Shown here in pieces: positions 36,020 through 46,257 of a stretch of DNA of 64,000 bases (position 1 is its first letter; each line of letters opens with the position of its first letter). This DNA is from Streptomyces kaniharaensis (GTDB taxonomy: Bacteria > Actinomycetota > Actinomycetes > Streptomycetales > Streptomycetaceae). The position numbers and the translations under genes are program-made. The stretch is taken from positions 2,986,001 to 3,050,000 of the forward strand of contig NZ_WBOF01000001.1 of assembly GCF_009569385.1 (NCBI RefSeq), written 5' to 3'. Below the pieces are notes generated by a model that worked only from the letters and a program-made list of their open reading frames with translations, searched no databases and was not told where the DNA came from.

Positions 36020-37024
36020 TCAGCAGGGCTTGCGCCAGGCGTTCAGTTCGAGCTTCTTCTGCATCGAGCTGAAGCCGAGCGACTTGGCCTTCGCGCAGAA
36101 CTGGTCCGTGTCGACCTTGTACTCGACGTGGAACACCGCCTTGCCCGCCCTGACGAAGGGCGCGACCCGGTCGCACTCGTCGAACTGCGAGCACTCCTCG
36201 TTGACCGCGAAGTCGAAGTCGTTGATCAGCGCGGGGATCTGGTCGAGGTCGTTCTTCAGGCCGATCGCCAGTCCGCGCTCGTGCGCCAGCTCGGCGAGCA
36301 TGCGGTTGTACCTGATCTGGTCGTCACCGGTGAGCGGGAAGCCGCTGTTCTGGTTGTAGGCCTCGATGGTGTCGGGCTCGATGGCGTCGAAGCCCTTGCT
36401 CCTGCACATGTCGAAGCGGGCGGCCATCAGCGGCCTGAGCTCGTTGATCTTCCGGATGTCGAACCACTTCTCGCCCTTCCAGCCGGTGTCGGACCCCTGG
36501 AGGGCCTTGGCGAAGGTGGCCGAGTCGGGGCGGAAGTTCTCCCAGGAACCGGCGTTGATGTAGCAGATCACCTTGCGGCCCTTGGCGTGCAGCGAGGCGA
36601 CCACCGACGCGTCGTTCTCGAAGCCGTCGATGTCGTAGACCGGGACGTCCACCGACTGGTCCACGCCGCCGCCGAGTTGCCACTGCCAGGCGAGGCCCGG
36701 GGTGGGCTGCCAGCGGGCGCCGGCCGGCTGCTGGGCGGGGGTGCTGCCGCCGGGAGTGCCCGGGGCGGAGGACGGGGCCGGGGCGGACGGCGTGCCGGTC
36801 GCGGTGGGCGTGCTCGGCGCGCTCGGAGTGGCCGGGGTGCTCGGGGCGCCGGTGGCACTCGGCGTTCCGGGAGTGCCGGGGGCGGTCGCCGCGGGCGGAT
36901 TGCTCGGGGTGTCCTCGGCCGAGGGGTCCTTGTCGTCCTCCGAGCCGGAGCTGCTGCACGAGGTGGCTAACAGGGCTGTGGTGAGGGCGACGGCGGCCAG
37001 GAGGGGCCGGGTACGGCGGTTCAC
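36020..37024 (-). CDS. GH114 endo-alpha-1,4-polygalactosaminidase-like lipoprotein
   Basis: The protein has 334 residues. GTG 37024 opens a lipoprotein signal with lipobox LATSC (Cys23). A Pro/Thr/Ser/Ala spacer of about 80 residues follows. Residues about 105-334 match the GH114 barrel: WQWQLGGGVDQSVDVPVYDI, KVICYINAGSWENFRPDSAT, KWFDIRKINELRPLMAARFD and KGFDAIEPDTIEAYN, where the catalytic acids lie. The fold is that of fungal Ega3 and bacterial polygalactosaminidases, which cut alpha-1,4-linked galactosamine chains. It is the last gene of the minus-strand operon, 22 bp after the spherulin-4 gene. A membrane-tethered hydrolase in an exopolysaccharide operon usually trims or clears polymer during export. 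Confidence 0.88.
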   Translation of the reverse strand: MNRRTRPLLAAVALTTALLATSCSSSGSEDDKDPSAEDTPSNPPAATAPGTPGTPSATGAPSTPATPSAPSTPTATGTPSAPAPSSAPGTPGGSTPAQQPAGARWQPTPGLAWQWQLGGGVDQSVDVPVYDIDGFENDASVVASLHAKGRKVICYINAGSWENFRPDSATFAKALQGSDTGWKGEKWFDIRKINELRPLMAARFDMCRSKGFDAIEPDTIEAYNQNSGFPLTGDDQIRYNRMLAELAHERGLAIGLKNDLDQIPALINDFDFAVNEECSQFDECDRVAPFVRAGKAVFHVEYKVDTDQFCAKAKSLGFSSMQKKLELNAWRKPC

Positions 37025-37046
37025 GGTTGTCGAACTCCGGATCTGG

Positions 37047-37739
37047 TCAGGTCAGTTCAGCGGCGGTCAGACCGTGGGGAAGGGTGCTCCAGGGGTTCTC
37101 CCCGGAGCCCGGGACGGCGCAGCCGACGCCGGCCCGGCGGGCGGCGATCAGCGCGGTGACGTCCGACGCGTGGTCGGCCGGGACGTCGTACACCAGGTGG
37201 CAGAAGCGGGAGGGCGCGTGGCGGGCGGTCCACAGCGGGAGGGTCATCTCGCGGTAGGCCTGCCAGGTGCCCTCGAAGGTGACGAGGAGGTCGGCCAGGC
37301 CGACCTCGGCGTACCCGGGGTCCGGGTGCTTGCCGTGGCCGAACACGACGGTGCCGCAGCCCGCGGCCCGCGCCGCGGTGGCCAGCCGCCGGTAGTGCGC
37401 CAACGCGCCCGGGTGGCAGGCGACTTGGTCGAGATAGACGCCGGTGATGCCATGACGCTGACGATACGTCAAAATGTCGGCCACCACTGCCGCATGGGGC
37501 CGACGGCCGTAGTCGGTGTCCGTGTAGCCGACCAACGGCAGGCCGGCGGCCCGCAGTTCTTCCGCGGCCTCGGTGAAGACGTGGTCCGGGGTGTCGCCCG
37601 GGCCGTCGGCGAGGTTGAGCACGACGGCGGCGATCCGGCTCGGGTCGGCGGCGGCGACCGCCCGCCAGGCCGCCGGGTCCACCGCGGGGTGGACGTACAG
37701 CGGCACCAGCAGGCGGCCGTCGGGGGTGGTCCCGGTCAT
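37047..37739 (-). CDS. Spherulation-specific family 4 protein (Sph3/GH135-like)
   Basis: The protein has 230 residues. ATG 37739 overlaps the stop of the preceding SDR gene by four bases. The whole length matches the spherulin-4 family: LLVPLYVHPAVDPAAWRAVA, IAAVVLNLADGPGDTPDHVF, GYTDTDYGRRPHAAVVADIL, TYRQRHGITGVYLDQVACHP, and a C-terminal VYDVPADHASDVTALIAARR. The fungal member Sph3 (GH135) hydrolyses galactosaminogalactan and is needed to make it. The acidic residues of LPLVGYTDTDYG and GVYLDQVA are candidates for catalysis. No signal peptide is visible, so it would act inside the cell or leave by another route. That is odd for a polymer hydrolase. Confidence 0.88.
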   Translation of the reverse strand: MTGTTPDGRLLVPLYVHPAVDPAAWRAVAAADPSRIAAVVLNLADGPGDTPDHVFTEAAEELRAAGLPLVGYTDTDYGRRPHAAVVADILTYRQRHGITGVYLDQVACHPGALAHYRRLATAARAAGCGTVVFGHGKHPDPGYAEVGLADLLVTFEGTWQAYREMTLPLWTARHAPSRFCHLVYDVPADHASDVTALIAARRAGVGCAVPGSGENPWSTLPHGLTAAELT

Positions 37740-38650
37740 CCGGCGACCGGGGCGGAGTCGGGCTCGGTGCTGAGCCAGAGGTCGCGCAGGGTGTCGGCGA
37801 GGTCGGTCTCCGGGTGCCAGCCGAGCTCCCGGGCGGCGGCCGACACGTCGGCCTGCTGCCAGGAGACCGCGGCCGAGCGCTCGGAGCCCGCCCCGCTCTC
37901 GTCGATCCGGCCGGTGAAGCCGGCCGCCGCGACCAGGCCGTCGGCGATCGCCCGGACCGGCTTGGCCCGCCCGGAGGCGAGGTTGAGCACCCGGGGGAGC
38001 GGACGGTCCGCGGCGGCGGCCAGGCCGACCGCGCGGGCGATGTCCCGGGCGTCGACGAAGTCGCGGTAGGCGGAGAGGTCCCCGACCTCGACCACGCCGT
38101 CGGCGCCCTCCGGGGCCACCCGGCGCAGCTCGGCGGCCAGCCGGCCGGGCAGCGAGCCCGCCGGTGCCCCCGGGCCGACCGGGTTGAACACCCGCAGCAC
38201 CACCGCGTCCAGCGGCGAGCCAGCCACCGCGAGGGAGCCGGCCAGCTTGGTCGCGCCGTACACGCCGACCGGGCGGGCGTCGGACTCCTCGGACAGCGAG
38301 CTGCCCGCCTCGCAGACGCCGTACTCGCCGGCCGAACCGATGTGCACCAGCCGGGCCTTCGGGGCGCCGAGCTGCAGCGCCTCGCAGAGCACGGCCGGAC
38401 CGCGCGCGTTCACCTCGGCGAGCTTGACCGCGCTGCCGGCCACCGCGCCGGCGAAGTTGACCACCACGTCGGGGGCCAGCGCGGCCAGTTCCTCGCCGAG
38501 CGGGCCGGCCTGGGCGGTGGCCAGGTCCAGCCGGAGGTCGTGAGCGGGCCGCCGGCCCGCGGTCAGCACGGTGGCACCGGGCAGCGACCGCAGGACGGCG
38601 GTGGCGTGGCGGCCGAGGAAGCCGTCCCCACCGAGAAGCAGGATCCTCAC
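37736..38650 (-). CDS. Extended SDR sugar-nucleotide epimerase/dehydratase
   Basis: The protein has 304 residues. GTG 38650 overlaps the stop of the nucleotidyltransferase gene (GTGA). The Rossmann motif GGDGFLG is at residues 7-13. The catalytic YxxxK is YGATK, after HIGSAGEYGV, and DFVDARDIARAVGLAA is a typical cofactor/substrate loop. The shape is that of NAD-dependent nucleotide-sugar epimerases or reductases. The exact reaction cannot be told; 4-epimerisation to a galacto-configured sugar would fit the GH114/Sph3 neighbours. Overlaps on both sides show tight coupling with the nucleotidyltransferase and spherulin-4 genes. Confidence 0.85.
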   Translation of the reverse strand: MRILLLGGDGFLGRHATAVLRSLPGATVLTAGRRPAHDLRLDLATAQAGPLGEELAALAPDVVVNFAGAVAGSAVKLAEVNARGPAVLCEALQLGAPKARLVHIGSAGEYGVCEAGSSLSEESDARPVGVYGATKLAGSLAVAGSPLDAVVLRVFNPVGPGAPAGSLPGRLAAELRRVAPEGADGVVEVGDLSAYRDFVDARDIARAVGLAAAADRPLPRVLNLASGRAKPVRAIADGLVAAAGFTGRIDESGAGSERSAAVSWQQADVSAAARELGWHPETDLADTLRDLWLSTEPDSAPVAG

Positions 38651-39474
38651 GCGGCCCGTCCGTCACTCTCGCTGCCCGCGGCGGCGGGCTCGTCGACGGC
38701 GTTCGGCGCGGTGCGGGCGGCCGGGATCGGCAGCTCGGCGACGCCCGGCGCGGCGCCGGTGGTCTCGAAGGGCATCAGGACCGAGCGGATGTCGGCGAAC
38801 TCGGCGTTGGCCCGGTCGTAGTCGTCCGGGCGGCCGATGTCGAGCCAGTAGCCGCCGAAGTCGTAGGAGGACGGCGGGGTGTCGGCGGCCAGCAGGTCGA
38901 GCACCAGCTCGTCGAAGCCCAGCGGCAGGCCCGGGGTGTACTTGGCGAGCGCGGAGCGGGACACGCCGTACACGCCCATCGAGACGCGGTAGTCGATGCT
39001 CGGCTTCTCCTGGAATCCGGTGATGCTGCCGGACTCGGTGGTGAGCACGCCGAAGTCGATCTTGACCTGGCGGGCGTAGGTGGCGATGGTCAGCGGCGAG
39101 CCGGACGCCTCGTGGTGCTTGAGCACCCCGGCGAAGTCCAGGTCGGTGAGGATGTCGCCGTTCATCACCAGGAAGTGCTCGGGCAGCCGGTCCTGCATGG
39201 TGAGCAGCGGGCCCATGGTGCCGAGCGGGCTGTCCTCGACGGCGTAGCCCACGCGCAGGCCCCACTGGGAGCCGTTGCCGACGTACGCGCGGATGATGTG
39301 GCCGAGGTGGCCGATGGCCAGGGTGACGGTCTTGAAGCCCGCGGCGGCGAGCTGGCGCATCACGATCTCCAGGATCGCGTGCTGGTCGCCGATCGGAACG
39401 AGCGGCTTGGGAAGCGCGGTGGTGTACGGGCGGAGACGGACGCCCTTACCGCCGGCCAGGATCACTGCATGCAT
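38647..39474 (-). CDS. Sugar-phosphate nucleotidyltransferase
   Basis: The protein has 275 residues. ATG 39474 follows GGGGGAAAAA; a GTG four codons earlier has no good site. The signature AVILAGGKGVRLRPYTTALP with KPLVPIGD binds the nucleotide. NGDILTDLD holds a metal-binding aspartate, and VSMGVYGVSRSALAKYTPG and YWLDIGRPDDYDRANAEF follow. This is the NTP_transferase family (GlmU/RmlA/ManC-like N-terminal domain) without a hexapeptide tail; a variable 35-residue C-terminus ends it. It makes the activated sugar for the operon's polymer; the sugar and nucleotide are not determined by sequence. Confidence 0.9.
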   Translation of the reverse strand: MHAVILAGGKGVRLRPYTTALPKPLVPIGDQHAILEIVMRQLAAAGFKTVTLAIGHLGHIIRAYVGNGSQWGLRVGYAVEDSPLGTMGPLLTMQDRLPEHFLVMNGDILTDLDFAGVLKHHEASGSPLTIATYARQVKIDFGVLTTESGSITGFQEKPSIDYRVSMGVYGVSRSALAKYTPGLPLGFDELVLDLLAADTPPSSYDFGGYWLDIGRPDDYDRANAEFADIRSVLMPFETTGAAPGVAELPIPAARTAPNAVDEPAAAGSESDGRAA

Positions 39475-39543
39475 TTTTTCCCCCACGGAAGGATGTGCAG
39501 GACACGAACCTTGACAACGAGGCTGGCTGGGTCGGTGCGGCGG

Positions 39544-40536
39544 TCAGACGTTGTAGATGTCGGTCTTGTAGCGGGCCAGGTTGGCCGGGTCCCGGAAGAA
39601 CTCGATGGTCTGCTCCAGGCCCTGCTCCAGCGTGAACTCGGGCGCCCAGCCGGTGGCCTTGCGCAGCCGGGTGGCGTCCGCGACCAGGCGCATGACCTCG
39701 GAGTTGGCCGGACGGATGCGCTGCTCGTCCTCCTTGACCACCAGGTCGACGCCCATCAGCTTGCCGACCAGGGTGACCAGGTCGCCGACCGAGATCTCGC
39801 CGCCGGTGCCGGCGTTGAAGGTCTTGCCGACCACGGTGTCGGCGGGCGCGGTGCCGACCGTGCGGAAGGCGTTAGCGGTGTCCTTGACGAACGTGAAGTC
39901 GCGGGTCGGGCGCAGGTCGCCGAGGGTGATCTCGGTCTCGCCGGCCGCGACCTGGGCGATCACGGTCGGGATGACGGCGCGCATCGACTGGCGCGGGCCG
40001 AAGGTGTTGAACGGGCGCAGGGTGACGACCGGGGTCTCGAAGCTGGCGTGGTAGCTGTCGGCCAGCCGGTCCCCGCCGGCCTTGGAGGCGGCGTACGGGG
40101 ACTGGGTGTTGATCGGGTGGTCCTCGGTGATCGGCACGGTCTGCGCGGTGCCGTACGTCTCGCTGGTCGAGGTGTGCACCAGGCGCGGGATGTCCAGGTG
40201 GCGCACCGCCTCCAGCACGTTCAGGGTGCCGGTGACGTTGGTGTCGACGTACGAGTGCGGGGCCCGGTAGGAGTAGGGGATGGCGATCAGCGCGGCCAGG
40301 TGGTACACCGCCTCGGTGCCCTTGACCAGGCCGTTGACCGAGCCCGGGTCCCGGACGTCGCCGAGGACGATCTCGACCGAGTCCAGCACCTCCCGGGGCA
40401 GGGTCTCCAGCCAGCCGAAGGAGGAGAAGGAGTTGTACTGGACCATCGCGCGGACGTGGTGACCGTCGGAGACCAGGGTCTCGACGAGGTGGGAGCCGAT
40501 GAAGCCCTCGGCTCCGGTAACCGCGACGCTGCTCAT
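39544..40536 (-). CDS. NAD-dependent nucleotide-sugar 4,6-dehydratase/epimerase (LegB-like)
   Basis: The protein has 330 residues, starting at ATG 40536. The cofactor motif is TGAEGFIGSHLVE. The catalytic region is HTSTSETYGTAQTVPI with the tetrad Tyr/Lys in SPYAASKAGGDRLA. The segment MVQYNSFSSFGWLETLPREV and HLAALIAIPYSYRAPHSYVD closely resembles LegB-type UDP-GlcNAc 4,6-dehydratases of legionaminic acid pathways. It could therefore supply a 6-deoxy or otherwise modified amino sugar. A plain epimerase role is the alternative. It lies 129 bp after the membrane protein gene and 69 bp before the nucleotidyltransferase, in the same operon. Confidence 0.87.
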   Translation of the reverse strand: MSSVAVTGAEGFIGSHLVETLVSDGHHVRAMVQYNSFSSFGWLETLPREVLDSVEIVLGDVRDPGSVNGLVKGTEAVYHLAALIAIPYSYRAPHSYVDTNVTGTLNVLEAVRHLDIPRLVHTSTSETYGTAQTVPITEDHPINTQSPYAASKAGGDRLADSYHASFETPVVTLRPFNTFGPRQSMRAVIPTVIAQVAAGETEITLGDLRPTRDFTFVKDTANAFRTVGTAPADTVVGKTFNAGTGGEISVGDLVTLVGKLMGVDLVVKEDEQRIRPANSEVMRLVADATRLRKATGWAPEFTLEQGLEQTIEFFRDPANLARYKTDIYNV

Positions 40537-40665
40537 GCGTGATTCGCTTTCTCGTTCTCGGATGTGACCGGGCGCTCTGTGGTGGCCCGGCCGTGGTGAC
40601 TCAGCTGTGACCGGTGATGCGGGTCCAGCTGTGCACGTGGTTGGGTCGTGCGGGTGTTTCGGTGT

Positions 40666-42189
40666 TCAGCGATGCTGGGTGGTGCGGCCGAGCACGGGCC
40701 CGGCGATGGCGGTGAGGACGAAGGCGGCCGTCCCGCAGCCGATCAGCTGCAGGAGGGTCGGATCCACACCGGTCAGCAGCCCGGCGCTCTCGGCACCCGC
40801 GGCGGCCAGACAGATGAGGGCGGTGCTCCAGCTGAGCCCGAAGGCGTTCAGCAGCAGCGCCAGCCAGAGCGAGCCGCCGAGGAGCAGCAGCGCGCCGAGC
40901 TGCGGGACGCCGAGCGCGGGGGCGCCGGGCCACAGCACGGTCGCGGCGGCGTCCAGCGCGGCCACGGTGGTGAGGTAGATGAAGAGGCAGCCGAGCAGCA
41001 CCCCGCCGGTCCGCCGGGTGAACTCGGCCGAGGTGTGGCTGGTCCGCAGCGCGGCGACGGCCATCGCCCGGTAGCGGAAGAGCAGCCACTCGGCGAGCCC
41101 GAGGCTGAGCGTCAGCGCGATCATGGCCGGGCCGGTCGGCGTGGTGCTCGCGCCGTGCGCGGCACCGGTCCTGACGGCCTGGTGGATGGTCACACCGAGA
41201 CCGGCGATCAGGGTGAGCGTGCCGCAGGCCAGGCCGAACAGCAGGTGCGGGATCTCCTGGCGGATCTGCAGCTTCAGCGCGACGGCGTCCTTGCCGTCCT
41301 TGTCGCGGCGGATGCAGAACAGCAGCTCCCGGGCGGCCAGTCCGACCGCGAGGAGCAGCGAGGCCAGCAGGACGACGGTCCGGACGACCTGCGGGACGTC
41401 CACCGCGAGCACCACGCCCGCGCCGACCGAGGCCGGCGCCAGTGCCACCAGCAGGAACTTCTCCCGCCCGAGCACCAGCAGCACGGTCGCCGCGCCCAGG
41501 TAGGCGGACTGCCCGGCGGCGAAGCACAGCGAGCTGAACGGACCTCCGACCACGTACGCGACCGTCGCGGCGATCAGCGCGCCGACCGGCGCCCCGATCG
41601 CCAGGCAGACCGCGGCGTCGCGACGCCGGAGCCGGCTGAGCCAGCGGTACGCGCGGTGCGCGAGCGCCTGGTTGAAGGCCCAGCTGGTGAGCGTCGCGAG
41701 GGTGAGCGCGAGCATGCCGGAGGGCAGGCCGAAGCGCATCCGGGTGGCCGCGAACAGGTTGGTGCCGAGCAGGTAGCCGAGCCCAGGCAGGGCGAACACC
41801 AGGCCGCGCACGACGCAGCGCCAGGGGTCGGCCCGCCAGGGGTTGGCGAACTCGGAGCTCGGGCCGGGGTAGCGCCGCTCGACCTTCTCGAACAGCTCCT
41901 CGGCGAGGGTGAAAGCGTCGGGCCGGCCGTACAGGAGCGCGGCCTGCTCGTCGGAGAGGCCGTCGGACTCCAGGATGGCCGCGATCTCGAAGGGGTGGAC
42001 GGCGTCGGCGCAGATGTCCTGCAGCCGCTCGGCGAGCTCGTCCAGCGGGTCCGCGGAGAGGCCCAGCTCCTCCGCGGGCGCCGGCTGGGCGGGCAGCGAC
42101 GGACGGCGGCGCTTGAGCGGCAGGGTGCGCAGCTGCACCGTCCGCTCGGAGCCGCCCTCGTCGGGCACCAGACGGATCGGACCACTCAT
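40666..42189 (-). CDS. Polytopic membrane protein of the exopolysaccharide operon
   Basis: The protein has 507 residues. ATG 42189 overlaps the stop of the 33-residue ORF. Residues 1-135 are cytoplasmic with an acidic helical part (LAERLQDICADAVHPFEIAA, DEQAALLYGRPDAFTLAEEL). The remainder has about ten to twelve transmembrane helices (for example VVRGLVFALPGLGYLLGTNL and GVPQLGALLLLGGSLWLALL). I do not recognise a named family. Its place directly after a PelF-type glycosyltransferase is that of PelG, the predicted membrane partner of PelF. It may be the polymer conduit or flippase, but this is inference from position and topology. Confidence 0.78.
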   Translation of the reverse strand: MSGPIRLVPDEGGSERTVQLRTLPLKRRRPSLPAQPAPAEELGLSADPLDELAERLQDICADAVHPFEIAAILESDGLSDEQAALLYGRPDAFTLAEELFEKVERRYPGPSSEFANPWRADPWRCVVRGLVFALPGLGYLLGTNLFAATRMRFGLPSGMLALTLATLTSWAFNQALAHRAYRWLSRLRRRDAAVCLAIGAPVGALIAATVAYVVGGPFSSLCFAAGQSAYLGAATVLLVLGREKFLLVALAPASVGAGVVLAVDVPQVVRTVVLLASLLLAVGLAARELLFCIRRDKDGKDAVALKLQIRQEIPHLLFGLACGTLTLIAGLGVTIHQAVRTGAAHGASTTPTGPAMIALTLSLGLAEWLLFRYRAMAVAALRTSHTSAEFTRRTGGVLLGCLFIYLTTVAALDAAATVLWPGAPALGVPQLGALLLLGGSLWLALLLNAFGLSWSTALICLAAAGAESAGLLTGVDPTLLQLIGCGTAAFVLTAIAGPVLGRTTQHR

Positions 42190-42287
42190 GCGCCCACCTC
42201 TCCCCCGGCCAGGGCGGCCGGGAGGTGCCCCCACCGCTCGGTAGCCGCTTCGCGGTACACGCACCTCCTGATGATTCGCTCGCTCAT
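42186..42287 (-). CDS. 33-residue ORF overlapping both neighbours
   Basis: ATG 42287 overlaps the stop of the PelF-type gene (ATGA), and its TGA overlaps the ATG of the membrane protein gene (ATGA again). The predicted peptide starts MSERIIRRCVYREAATERWG and ends GGEVGA. The internal AGGAGGTGCGTG provides one ribosome-binding-like site and GGGGGAGAGGTGG another, so the frame may mainly relay ribosomes between the two large genes. Whether the basic, single-Cys peptide itself has a role is unknown. Confidence 0.55.
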   Translation of the reverse strand: MSERIIRRCVYREAATERWGHLPAALAGGEVGA

Positions 42288-43789
42288 GCCCCCACCTCGC
42301 TCGGCTGGGCTCGGGCGACGAGCTGCTGGTCCCAGTCGGCGGGGACGTTCTCGGCGGCGACGACGCCGCTCGGCATCCAGCGGGCGGTGCCGAGGAGTTC
42401 GGTGTAGATGCCGCGGAAGCCGTCGATGTTCTGGCGGAGCGTGAACTGCTCGATGACCCGCAGCCGGGCCTGCTCGCCGAGCCTGCCGCGCCGTTCGGGG
42501 TCGCGCAGCAGCTCGATCGCGGCGGCGGCCATCGGCTCGGGCTCGCGCGGCGGGACGACCAGCCCGGTGTCGCCGACGGCCTCGCGCACGCCGCCCACGT
42601 CGGTCGAGACGGTCGCGCGTCCGCAGGACATCGCCTCGATCAGGGTGAACGGGAAGCCCTCGCTGATGCTGGAGAGCATGACCACGTTGCCCGCCGCGTA
42701 GGCGTCGGTGATGTCGGCGACGCGGCCCTCGAAGGCCACCGAGTCGGCTATGCCGAGCTCGGCGGCCAGGGCTATGCAGCCGTCCCGGTACGCCTCGCCG
42801 CCCTTGGGGGTGCCGCCGAAGAGCCGCAGTCGCGCCTCGGGGATCTCGCGTCGGACGATGGCGAAGGCCCGGATCAGGGTCTCCAGGTCCTTGATCGGGT
42901 CGACCCGGCCGGCCCAGCTGAGGGTCGGGGTCTGCGGCTCCGGGCCGGCGGGCGGGAAGGCCGTCGGGTCCACGCCGTTGTAGACGGTCCGGATGTTCGC
43001 GGACGGGGTGCCGCCGCGCTCCTCCCAGCGCCGGTTGTACCGGTTGCCGGGGGTGACCAGCGCGGCCTGACGGTAGCTCTCCTCGGCGAGCATCCGGTAG
43101 AAGCCGAGCAGCAGCGCCTTGACCGGCCACCGGTACGGACCGGTGCGGTAGCCGAGGTAGCGCTCGCGCAGGTAGATGCCGTGCTCGGTGAGCAGAAACG
43201 GTACGCCGTACTGCTGAGCGGCGATCAGCCCGGGCAGGGTGGCGAGGCCGCCACTGGCCGCGTGGGCGACACCGTTCGTCGGCGGCTCGACCGAGAGCGG
43301 GCGGAGCGCGTGCTCCAGCAGGTCGGTGGCGTTCAGGGCGTCGTGGAGGGTGGGCCGGGAGACGGCCGTGGGGAGGTAGTCGCGGGTCCAGACGTGCTGG
43401 AGGGTGCGCAGGGCGCGCTCGCTGCGCAGCGCGGGGCTGAGCAGCCCGCGCCGGGCGAGGTCGGCGAAGCCGTACAGCTCGGTGCCGAAGTGCGTGGTGT
43501 AGACGGGGTCGAGGATGGAGTGGAGGAAGCGCTCGTACGCGTTGAGGAAGCGCCGCATCTCGCGGCCGCGCGGCGCCCTCGCCTCGGCGGCGGGGCCCCA
43601 CAGCGGTGCGGTGGTGACGGACCGCACGTTGGCGGGCAACTCCCAGGCCAGTGGTTCGTGACCGGTTCCGGTGACGGCGATGATGTCGAAGTCGACGTCG
43701 GGCATGCCTTGAACGAGCTGGTCGCACCAGACGCTCACGCCGCCGTGCTGGTGCGGATACGTCCCCTCGGTGAGCAGGGTGACGCGCAT
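42284..43789 (-). CDS. pelF: PelF-type family 4 glycosyltransferase
   Basis: The protein has 501 residues, starting at ATG 43789. The N-terminus MRVTLLTEGTYPHQHGGVSV followed by WCDQLVQGMPDVDFDIIAVT is the PelF hallmark (GT4 with the extended N-terminal insert, residues 1-270). The acceptor/donor half has TLSWAGRVDPIKDLETLIRA. The E-x7-E motif that binds the nucleotide-sugar phosphate is in SISEGFPFTLIEAMSCGRAT. PelF polymerises the Pel exopolysaccharide from UDP-GalNAc-type donors in the cytoplasm; the GT4 half of fungal Gtb3 is related in idea. It sits 116 bp after the deacetylase-like gene and is translationally coupled downstream. Confidence 0.92.
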   Translation of the reverse strand: MRVTLLTEGTYPHQHGGVSVWCDQLVQGMPDVDFDIIAVTGTGHEPLAWELPANVRSVTTAPLWGPAAEARAPRGREMRRFLNAYERFLHSILDPVYTTHFGTELYGFADLARRGLLSPALRSERALRTLQHVWTRDYLPTAVSRPTLHDALNATDLLEHALRPLSVEPPTNGVAHAASGGLATLPGLIAAQQYGVPFLLTEHGIYLRERYLGYRTGPYRWPVKALLLGFYRMLAEESYRQAALVTPGNRYNRRWEERGGTPSANIRTVYNGVDPTAFPPAGPEPQTPTLSWAGRVDPIKDLETLIRAFAIVRREIPEARLRLFGGTPKGGEAYRDGCIALAAELGIADSVAFEGRVADITDAYAAGNVVMLSSISEGFPFTLIEAMSCGRATVSTDVGGVREAVGDTGLVVPPREPEPMAAAAIELLRDPERRGRLGEQARLRVIEQFTLRQNIDGFRGIYTELLGTARWMPSGVVAAENVPADWDQQLVARAQPSEVGA

Positions 43790-43905
43790 TCCTGTCCCCC
43801 CTCCTGTTCTTGCGTCGGGCGTCCGTTCCGGGTGGCCGGAACGGGAGCCGTGGCAGGGCCGGGCCGGGGTTCGCCCGGCCAGGCCCCGCCAGCGGGTGTT
43901 ACGTG

Positions 43906-46257
43906 TTACCGGTTGCCGGACTGTCCGGCGTGCTTGCGATCGCGCTCGGCCGTCCCCCCGGAGGCCTTGGCGTTCTTCGCGGCATCGGCGGCGTTGCCGT
44001 TGCCGTTCTTCACGACGCCCTTGCCGGGCACCGGGGTTCCGCTGCCGGGGACCAGGGACGGAGCCTTGGTCCGGGTGGTGTCGCTGGGACCGACGGGGAC
44101 CGGGGTGGCGACACCCTGCGGCACCGTCTTGTCGGTCGTCGCCGGGGCCGTGACGGACTTGGCCGCGACGTTCGGAGCGACGGCGGCCGGGGCCGCCGGG
44201 GCGGAGCCCGAGGACAGCTGCAGCGTGACGCTGCTCTGCAGGGAACCGGGTGCCACCCAGCCGGACAGCGTACCGGCGTAGGCGGAACCGAAGGCGGTCG
44301 AACCGATGGCCAGCTTCTGAGTAGTTCCCGTCGGCATGGTGGCCTGGACCTGAACACCGGACGGCGCGTTGACCGTGACGGTGTTGCCCACCTTGTAGGC
44401 GGTGACCTGGCCGGAGGCCAGGGCCGCGTTCCAGGCCGCGCGCTTCTGGAACTCCTGGCCGATCTCGCCCTCACCGAGGTTCATGATCGGGGTGTTGTCG
44501 GTGTAGAGCGAGCGGTAGGTGCCGAGGATCTTCTCCAGCACCGGGTACAGGATCCGGCCCTCGGAGAGGTTCGACTGGTGGATGAAGTGCGGCCGCGGGT
44601 CGTTGTTCATCACGTGGCCGAGGTCGATCCGGGCCTCCAGCGGCACGATGTACGACTGGTAGCCGGTCGCGGTGTCCAGCGGCTTGGGCAGGCAGGTCGA
44701 GTTCGCGTTGTTCTCGCAGATCCCGCTGCCGCCGTTGGCCTTGCTGGTGTAGATCCAGTTGTACTCGTCGGCCTCCTCCACCGCCGAGCCGGCGTTGTAG
44801 AAGACGTTCATCGGGTAGCGCGGCACGGTCAGCGTCGACGAGCCGACGGCCCGCTGGGCGGGCTCGCGGGAGGCGTCGCTGCCGGTGAACTTGATGCCGT
44901 TGGCGGCCAGCGCCGGCGCCAGGTTCGGGTTGTCGCTGGTCTCCTGCGGGGCGGTCAGCAGACCGGAGTGCTCGCCGGTGACCAGGACGTTCGGGTCGAC
45001 GTGGAGACCGTTCTTCGTGGCCCAGTCGAAGTTGTTCTTGATCTGGGTGTTGATCGTGTTCTGGTCGACCCAGACCACGTTGCCCGTGGCGTCCTTGGTG
45101 CAGCGCCACGGCACCACGCTGACGTCCTGGACGCAGCCCAGGTACGGGTGGGTGTAGGTGTGGTTGACCCAGCGGTAGCTGGTCTGGTCGGCGATCATCT
45201 GGCTCGACGTCGGGTCGACCGTGGCGCTGTGGTCGGCCTTCCAGTCCTCGCTGCCGCCACCGTTGAACACCATGTCCATGGTGAAGTTGTTGGCGGCCTG
45301 CCACTGCTTGGCGTACTGCGCGTCGGCGGCCGTCATCCGGATCGGGTTTCCGGTGTCCGGCGTGCCGGGCGGGCAGGTGACGTCACCGGGGGTGCACTTC
45401 AGCGTGGTGGACCAGCGGTCGTCCGCCAGGAAGACGTCGTCCACGTGGGCCGCGAAGTAGTTGCGGTCGTAGCCGAGGTGGACACCCTGGGTGATCCAGT
45501 CGACCATGCCGCGGGCCAGCAGCCGGTACTGCTGCTGGTACTGGTTGTAGACGAACGTGACGACCAGTTCCTTGCGGCCGTCGTGGGTGTACTCGCCGAC
45601 CAGCGAGCCGCGCGCGGTGCTGTTCGGGATCGGGGCGTCGACCAGCGGCGTGAACGAGGCGCCGGCCGGCAGGCCGGCCATCGGGGTGGCCAGGTAGCCG
45701 TAGCTCTCGCTGACGTTCGGGTCGTTGTCCTCGAACGGGACGCTGCCCTTCAGGTAGCCGAACGGGCCCGAAGTGCCGGCCGCGGTGGTGGCTCCCTGGA
45801 AACCGTCCAAGGTGCCTATGTAACCGGGATTCTGGGCCCAGTTCAGACCCACCGCCGGGCTGGCGAGCGTGTACGCGTCGATCTGGCGGACGTTGAAAGC
45901 CGCCTCGTACGTCGCGATCGCCGTCATCTCGGCCGGCGAGTTGGTGAAGGGGTTTTCGTTGGGCAGCACGATGCCCTGGTACTTACCCCGGGGGGTCCCG
46001 TTGACCGTGTCGCTGAGGAAAGCGGCGTTGATCACCGGACGGTTGGGGTCGCTCAGGCTGACGACCTTGTACGGGGTGCCCTGGCTCTTGAGCTCGGCGG
46101 TGATCGCCGCGACGGACGGGCCGCCGTCGTCGATGACCAGGACGGTGAGATCGATCCTGACGGGCGTGGTGTCGCCGTGAGCCAGGGTGGTCTGCAGGCC
46201 GCTGGCCAGCAGAACTGCCGCCGCGCAGGCGGCAACTCTTCGGGTCGCTCGACCCAT
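43906..46257 (-). CDS. Secreted polysaccharide-deacetylase-like protein (Agd3/PelA-like)
   Basis: The protein has 783 residues. ATG 46257 is preceded by GGGGAGGATCACC. A signal peptide (MGRATRRVAACAAAVLLASG, cleavage after TLAHG) leads to an N-terminal flavodoxin-like part (about 30-160, LTVLVIDDGGPSVAAITAEL). A beta-rich part and a deacetylase-like barrel follow. Metal-site motifs of CE4 type are visible: H271-V-D273-D274 (AHVDDVFLADDRW) and H366-T-Y-T-H370 (WVNHTYTHPYLG). GEHSGL and FIHQSNLSEGRILYPVLEKI lie further on. Residues about 640-783 are a beta domain plus a Pro/Ala/Lys-rich tail. The multi-domain layout resembles Agd3 (CE18) of Aspergillus and the deacetylase of PelA. It is the first gene of the operon and would deacetylate the exported amino-sugar polymer. 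Confidence 0.82.
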   Translation of the reverse strand: MGRATRRVAACAAAVLLASGLQTTLAHGDTTPVRIDLTVLVIDDGGPSVAAITAELKSQGTPYKVVSLSDPNRPVINAAFLSDTVNGTPRGKYQGIVLPNENPFTNSPAEMTAIATYEAAFNVRQIDAYTLASPAVGLNWAQNPGYIGTLDGFQGATTAAGTSGPFGYLKGSVPFEDNDPNVSESYGYLATPMAGLPAGASFTPLVDAPIPNSTARGSLVGEYTHDGRKELVVTFVYNQYQQQYRLLARGMVDWITQGVHLGYDRNYFAAHVDDVFLADDRWSTTLKCTPGDVTCPPGTPDTGNPIRMTAADAQYAKQWQAANNFTMDMVFNGGGSEDWKADHSATVDPTSSQMIADQTSYRWVNHTYTHPYLGCVQDVSVVPWRCTKDATGNVVWVDQNTINTQIKNNFDWATKNGLHVDPNVLVTGEHSGLLTAPQETSDNPNLAPALAANGIKFTGSDASREPAQRAVGSSTLTVPRYPMNVFYNAGSAVEEADEYNWIYTSKANGGSGICENNANSTCLPKPLDTATGYQSYIVPLEARIDLGHVMNNDPRPHFIHQSNLSEGRILYPVLEKILGTYRSLYTDNTPIMNLGEGEIGQEFQKRAAWNAALASGQVTAYKVGNTVTVNAPSGVQVQATMPTGTTQKLAIGSTAFGSAYAGTLSGWVAPGSLQSSVTLQLSSGSAPAAPAAVAPNVAAKSVTAPATTDKTVPQGVATPVPVGPSDTTRTKAPSLVPGSGTPVPGKGVVKNGNGNAADAAKNAKASGGTAERDRKHAGQSGNR

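Follow-up and report, generated by a model that had tools for sequence, protein, structure and literature searches.

The window analysed here, a 64,000-nucleotide stretch of Streptomyces kaniharaensis DNA, carries on its minus strand an agd3-like gene (43906..46257) that raises the question of whether this Kitasatospora-like soil actinobacterium possesses a counterpart of the fungal deacetylase Agd3 and, if so, on which polymer it acts. Agd3 is the enzyme by which a mould makes its sticky biofilm sugar coat, and the bacterial enzyme appears, on the evidence of its predicted model and of sequence alignment, to be close to it in fold and active site. The product of the agd3-like gene is very probably a polysaccharide N-deacetylase of CE18 type, secreted and dependent on a metal; it would be a bacterial Agd3 that works within an operon-encoded exopolysaccharide pathway.

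Domain build and predicted fold

The reading frame starts with an ATG at 46257, downstream of a GGAGG, and runs through 783 codons to a stop. Together with an N-terminal signal peptide at residues 1–29 (46171..46257), recognised in the sequence by a hydrophobic segment at 8–26, these features confirm the frame as a real gene, and the earlier note's comparison of its 783-residue product with Agd3 in length proves fair. Promoter and terminator scans yield no convincing element, and a search for BldD-box-like patterns gives nothing above chance and none at the promoter. The predicted secreted protein is built from three domains. An N-terminal CBM87-like domain (45487..46158) is placed by the model, by its match to the Agd3 crystal structure 6NWZ, and by a CBM87_Agd3 (PF25116) match over residues 36–139 that lies below the curated cut-off (E 5e-4; 20.3 bits vs 27.6). 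It is followed by a CE18-like (beta/alpha)-barrel deacetylase domain at about residues 265–611 (44425..45465), delineated by the model and by structural and profile matches, and by a beta-rich C-terminal domain at about residues 619–680 (44218..44403), delineated by the secondary structure of the model, from which a Pro/Ala-rich tail extends. The Agd3_CE Pfam family gives no match with the Streptomyces kaniharaensis protein alone, and that the single protein stays below the Agd3 family cut-offs is a point against the bacterial-Agd3 reading.

An AlphaFold model of residues 30–692, computed from an alignment of 37 streptomycete homologues, reaches a pLDDT of 82.9 and a pTM of 0.85; the single-sequence prediction, at a pLDDT of 34, is useless. 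The top Foldseek match of the model is Agd3 6NWZ (E 1.2e-27, TM 0.70 over both chains), and VIA superposes the two with a Z of 27.2 and 549 residues aligned at 2.8 A, so that the three-domain build of CBM87, deacetylase and C-terminal beta domain is matched across model residues 3–658. The comparison proposed in the earlier note, of a predicted structure with the Agd3 crystal structure, thus returns 6NWZ as the best match over nearly the whole length, and it is this agreement in fold that speaks for the predicted metal ligands coming together in space. Foldseek additionally matches GMP synthase amidotransferase domains, a result attributed to the N-terminal domain having a common alpha/beta fold. 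Among the VIA matches listed, NDST1 stands second with a Z of 23.2 and CE4-type deacetylases reach at most 16.5.

The CE4 scores, together with the Agd3-like, three-domain build of Bacillus cereus PelADA (PMC13254593), are what could be said for an enzyme of CE4 or CE26 (PelADA) type whose likeness to Agd3 stops at the general fold, since CE4 enzymes do match the barrel. This is highly improbable: over its full length the protein agrees with Agd3 far more closely than with the CE4 enzymes, and the third and fourth catalytic motifs of Agd3 are present in register. The VIA rows behind this comparison include CE4 enzymes but not PelADA. Moreover, the agd3-like protein has no match to Polysacc_deac_1, the Pfam family sought as a sign of a CE4 (NodB) enzyme, and its arginine and acid motifs follow the Agd3 order.

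Kinship with Agd3 can also be traced by sequence, because distant members of the family, such as that of Deinococcus, bridge the gap. Searches of PDB sequences with the agd3-like protein, or with the streptomycete alignment or profile alone, do not find Agd3, and the miss by the streptomycete profile also counts against the bacterial-Agd3 reading. A tblastn search of plasmids with the agd3-like protein as query recovers a Deinococcus homologue (27% identity, 2e-29) and further homologues in Burkholderia, Thermus and Kocuria; viral contigs hold no relatives of the protein. The Deinococcus homologue matches Agd3 itself at 1.3e-10 and exceeds the curated Pfam cut-offs for both Agd3_CE and CBM87_Agd3. 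A profile of eight family members, the agd3-like protein included, matches 6NWZ end to end (26–660) at 2.3e-41, a score of which the deep-branching members probably supply much, and the alignment keeps each of the four catalytic motifs in line with its Agd3 counterpart. The whole-length fold match, this profile match and the GAG/Pel-like operon described below all speak for the earlier suggestion of a bacterial CE18-like enzyme.

The predicted catalytic centre

Alignment to the 6NWZ chain, converted to Agd3 numbering by an offset of 122 that was fixed by D377/D378 and is consistent at the other sites, matches all six Agd3 catalytic positions (D377, D378, H510, H514, R613 and H668) with D273, D274, H366, H370, R480 and H560, respectively. 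The roles of these residues in the Agd3 active site, like the activity of Agd3, are taken from PMC7229062. All six are invariant in 56 homologue rows, a set that overlaps in part because some genomes are present twice, from two collections. Specifically, the first motif comprises D273 and D274 (45436..45441), the second H366-x3-H370 (45148..45162), the third R480 (44818..44820) and the fourth H560 (44578..44580), all on the minus strand.

The short signatures H271-V-D-D and H366-TYT-H370, first pointed out in the earlier note, lie where they were reported, and H271 itself is not invariant (52/56 homologue rows). A DD pair followed 60–140 residues on by HxxxH arises in about 2.5% of shuffles of the agd3-like protein, and the motif alone is therefore weak; the invariance of D273, D274, H366 and H370 across the 56 rows is what lifts the metal-motif signal above chance. 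The metal site that the earlier note had drawn from D273, H366 and H370 holds in part. The two histidines align with metal ligands, whereas the aspartates pair with Agd3 D377/D378, and D273 is therefore the predicted base and D274 the predicted metal ligand. By analogy with Agd3, D274, H366 and H370 would hold the metal, D273, positioned by the predicted base-coordinating R480, would activate a water molecule, and H560, the predicted catalytic acid, would protonate the leaving amine. One position near the acid departs from the fungal enzyme: F558 occupies the place of Agd3 M666, and homologues carry F or Y there, which counts against a bacterial Agd3. The replacement of M666 by alanine abolished Agd3 activity in an adhesion assay (PMC7229062).

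The operon and its probable polymer

The agd3-like gene is the first in an operon (36020–46257) whose genes all lie on the minus strand, some of them overlapping or almost touching, in the order agd3, pelF, membrane protein, three sugar-nucleotide genes, spherulin-4 and GH114. The pelF gene (42284..43789) encodes a GT4 glycosyltransferase and putative polymer synthase that scores 168.7 bits against the PelF model NF038011 (cut-off 100). The next gene (40666..42264, start uncertain) encodes a multi-spanning membrane protein, a putative export partner without a family match, which occupies the place of PelG. Pel-like through PelF, the operon nevertheless lacks a recognisable PelG, as PF16933 has no match anywhere in the genome in an HMM search with a positive control, and this too weighs against the bacterial-Agd3 reading. 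PF16963, the PelD c-di-GMP receptor family, gives no match, in a search in which the control genomes were silent too. Elsewhere in the genome, a second PelF-like glycosyltransferase with 45% identity (L074:8543-10162; G000:C1:3726542-3727993) has an epimerase nearby and no adjoining Agd3 gene.

At the distal end of the operon, the GH114 endo-alpha-1,4-polygalactosaminidase (36020..37024; PF03537, 8e-85) bears a lipobox and has fungal Ega3 as its closest solved structure (6OJ1, 3e-58). Two more GH114 genes are located away from the operon (G000:C3:498001-498639 and G000:C3:148362-149003). The spherulin-4 family protein of GH135 type (37047..37739; PF12138, 4.7e-30) is closest among solved structures to fungal Sph3 (5C5G, 3.4e-10). 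Sph3, its fungal counterpart, acts as a membrane-bound hydrolase; a signal peptide is evident neither in the protein described here nor in those of the other loci examined.

These genes are best accommodated by a biosynthetic pathway in which the agd3-like enzyme most likely deacetylates, in part, an exopolysaccharide of alpha-1,4-GalNAc type. In the cytoplasm PelF would join amino-sugar units, probably GalNAc, into a chain, which the multi-spanning protein would pass out of the cell. With this chain bound along its CBM87-like domain, the Agd3-like enzyme could then remove some of the N-acetyl groups, a partial deacetylation that would render the polymer cationic and adhesive, after which the GH114 lipoprotein may trim the deacetylated stretches. 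Such a product might serve in adhesion or mycelial aggregation. The gene, its domains, the conserved residues of the active site and the operon are observed directly, whereas substrate, metal, polymer chemistry and biological role are inferred. The two hydrolases, both of fungal type, could alternatively belong to a degradative system, in which the enzyme, acting outside the cell, strips acetyl groups from the GAG or Pel of fungi and bacteria nearby and so opens it to digestion by GH114 and spherulin-4 as food. A galactosaminidase activity of Streptomyces griseus is on record (PMC7229062, PMC12054363). The proposal is nonetheless improbable, as the pelF, membrane protein and sugar-nucleotide genes that lie in between constitute a synthesis layout and the spherulin-4 protein carries no signal peptide.

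The three sugar-nucleotide genes (37736–40536), likely a GDP-6-deoxy-sugar trio, are less readily anticipated, as is the spherulin-4 protein without a signal peptide, and the trio is the part of the operon least explained by existing accounts. It comprises a LegB-like NAD-dependent 4,6-dehydratase (39544..40536), which scores 457.9 bits against TIGR04180, below the cut-off of 475; a sugar-1-phosphate nucleotidyltransferase (38647..39486; PF00483), whose best NCBIfam resemblance, below cut-off, is to mannose-1-phosphate guanylyltransferase; and an SDR, a putative 4-keto-6-deoxy-sugar reductase (37736..38650), whose closest solved structures are GDP-6-deoxy-4-hexulose reductases. Because the reductase is nearest to these enzymes and the dehydratase is LegB-like, the trio suggests that the polymer may contain a further amino sugar of the 6-deoxy kind, a lead rather than a result.

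Comparison of 36 loci from species-level genomes, two of which end at a contig edge, shows which parts of the operon travel together. Downstream of agd3, pelF is present in 35/36 loci, GH114 in 34/36, spherulin-4 in 29/36 and the trio in 28/36, and plasmids of Deinococcus, Thermus, Kocuria and Streptomyces carry comparable sets of genes. Deinococcus keeps the trio, whereas loci of Streptacidiphilus, Kocuria and Thermus have the agd3-pelF-GH114 core without it. This distribution bears on a further reading, namely a CE18-fold deacetylase of another polymer, either a 6-deoxy-amino-sugar hetero-polysaccharide built through the trio or GlcNAc-type chains such as those of NDST1. The position of the trio inside the operon, its retention in most loci and in Deinococcus, the affinities of its dehydratase and reductase, and the rank of NDST1 as second structural match all lend weight to it. 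Against it, PelF and the two partner hydrolases, GH114 and spherulin-4, speak for GalNAc/GalN chains, and the core persists without the trio in three genera; the reading is possible but rather unlikely. A related and still more tentative proposal is a GAG/Pel-like polymer of new composition, in which a GDP-linked 6-deoxy-N-acetylhexosamine built by the trio would be deacetylated by the Agd3-like enzyme, and spherulin-4, lacking a signal peptide, would work inside the cell on the nascent chain.

Several loci depart from the common arrangement. Kitasatospora sp. A2-31 (L031; L014 is probably the same genome) retains agd3, the trio, spherulin-4 and GH114 and is missing pelF and the membrane protein at this site, a natural loss of the synthase. 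Two congeners (L070:1771-5373 and L071:1674-5390) encode Agd3-like proteins of about 1200 residues, in which an insertion separates the two halves of the match and Ig-like repeats lie at the C-terminus, and another actinobacterial Agd3-like protein (L072:7985-11032) ends in three fibronectin type III domains. Deinococcus aquaticus (L057:9755-14317) carries two tandem Agd3-like genes in a plasmid-borne pelF operon.

Comparison with known systems

Aspergillus fumigatus Agd3 (CE18 and CBM87; 6NWZ) shares with the agd3-like protein the three-domain build, the whole-chain fold, the four catalytic motifs in order and secretion, and in both organisms GH114, spherulin-4 and glycosyltransferase genes adjoin. 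The two proteins differ in that identity in structural alignments is about 16–18%, the spacing between the first and second motifs is 92 residues in the agd3-like protein versus 132 in Agd3, and the bacterial protein has F558 for M666, a long Pro/Ala-rich tail and extra cysteine-bearing loops (invariant C288, C375, C386, C514 and C522). The pelDEADAFG operon of B. cereus shares the PelF synthase, and its PelADA (CE26, a family since set up for it, and CBM114; PMC13254593, PMC7112168) is a three-domain deacetylase that acts on alpha-1,4-GalNAc; in contrast, the catalytic motifs described here follow Agd3, and the genome has no recognisable PelG. The deacetylase domain of human NDST1 (8CCY, 9F6Z) has related N-terminal and deacetylase domains, but NDST1 acts on heparan sulfate and its sulfotransferase domain is absent from the agd3-like protein.

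The operon itself offers a way to find out whether a galactosaminogalactan-like coat is produced by streptomycetes, and could bear on hyphal adhesion, on pellet formation and on the proposed fungal acquisition of the GAG cluster from bacteria. Its closest precedents are the exopolysaccharide operons with Agd3 homologues described in Actinobacteria, Deinococcus-Thermus and Burkholderia (Bamford et al. 2020, PMC7229062), which combine GH114 with a glycosyltransferase of the cytoplasm and a membrane protein of many spans, and in some Actinobacteria include spherulin-4. The same kinds of gene are found here, together with a LegB-type trio that the available text does not discuss. Since bacterial Agd3 homologues, including those of Actinobacteria with GH114 and spherulin-4, have been known since 2020 from that account, the Streptomyces kaniharaensis enzyme adds to a described class, as a well-supported actinobacterial member of a family of deacetylases for which a fungal virulence factor has been the main source of knowledge.
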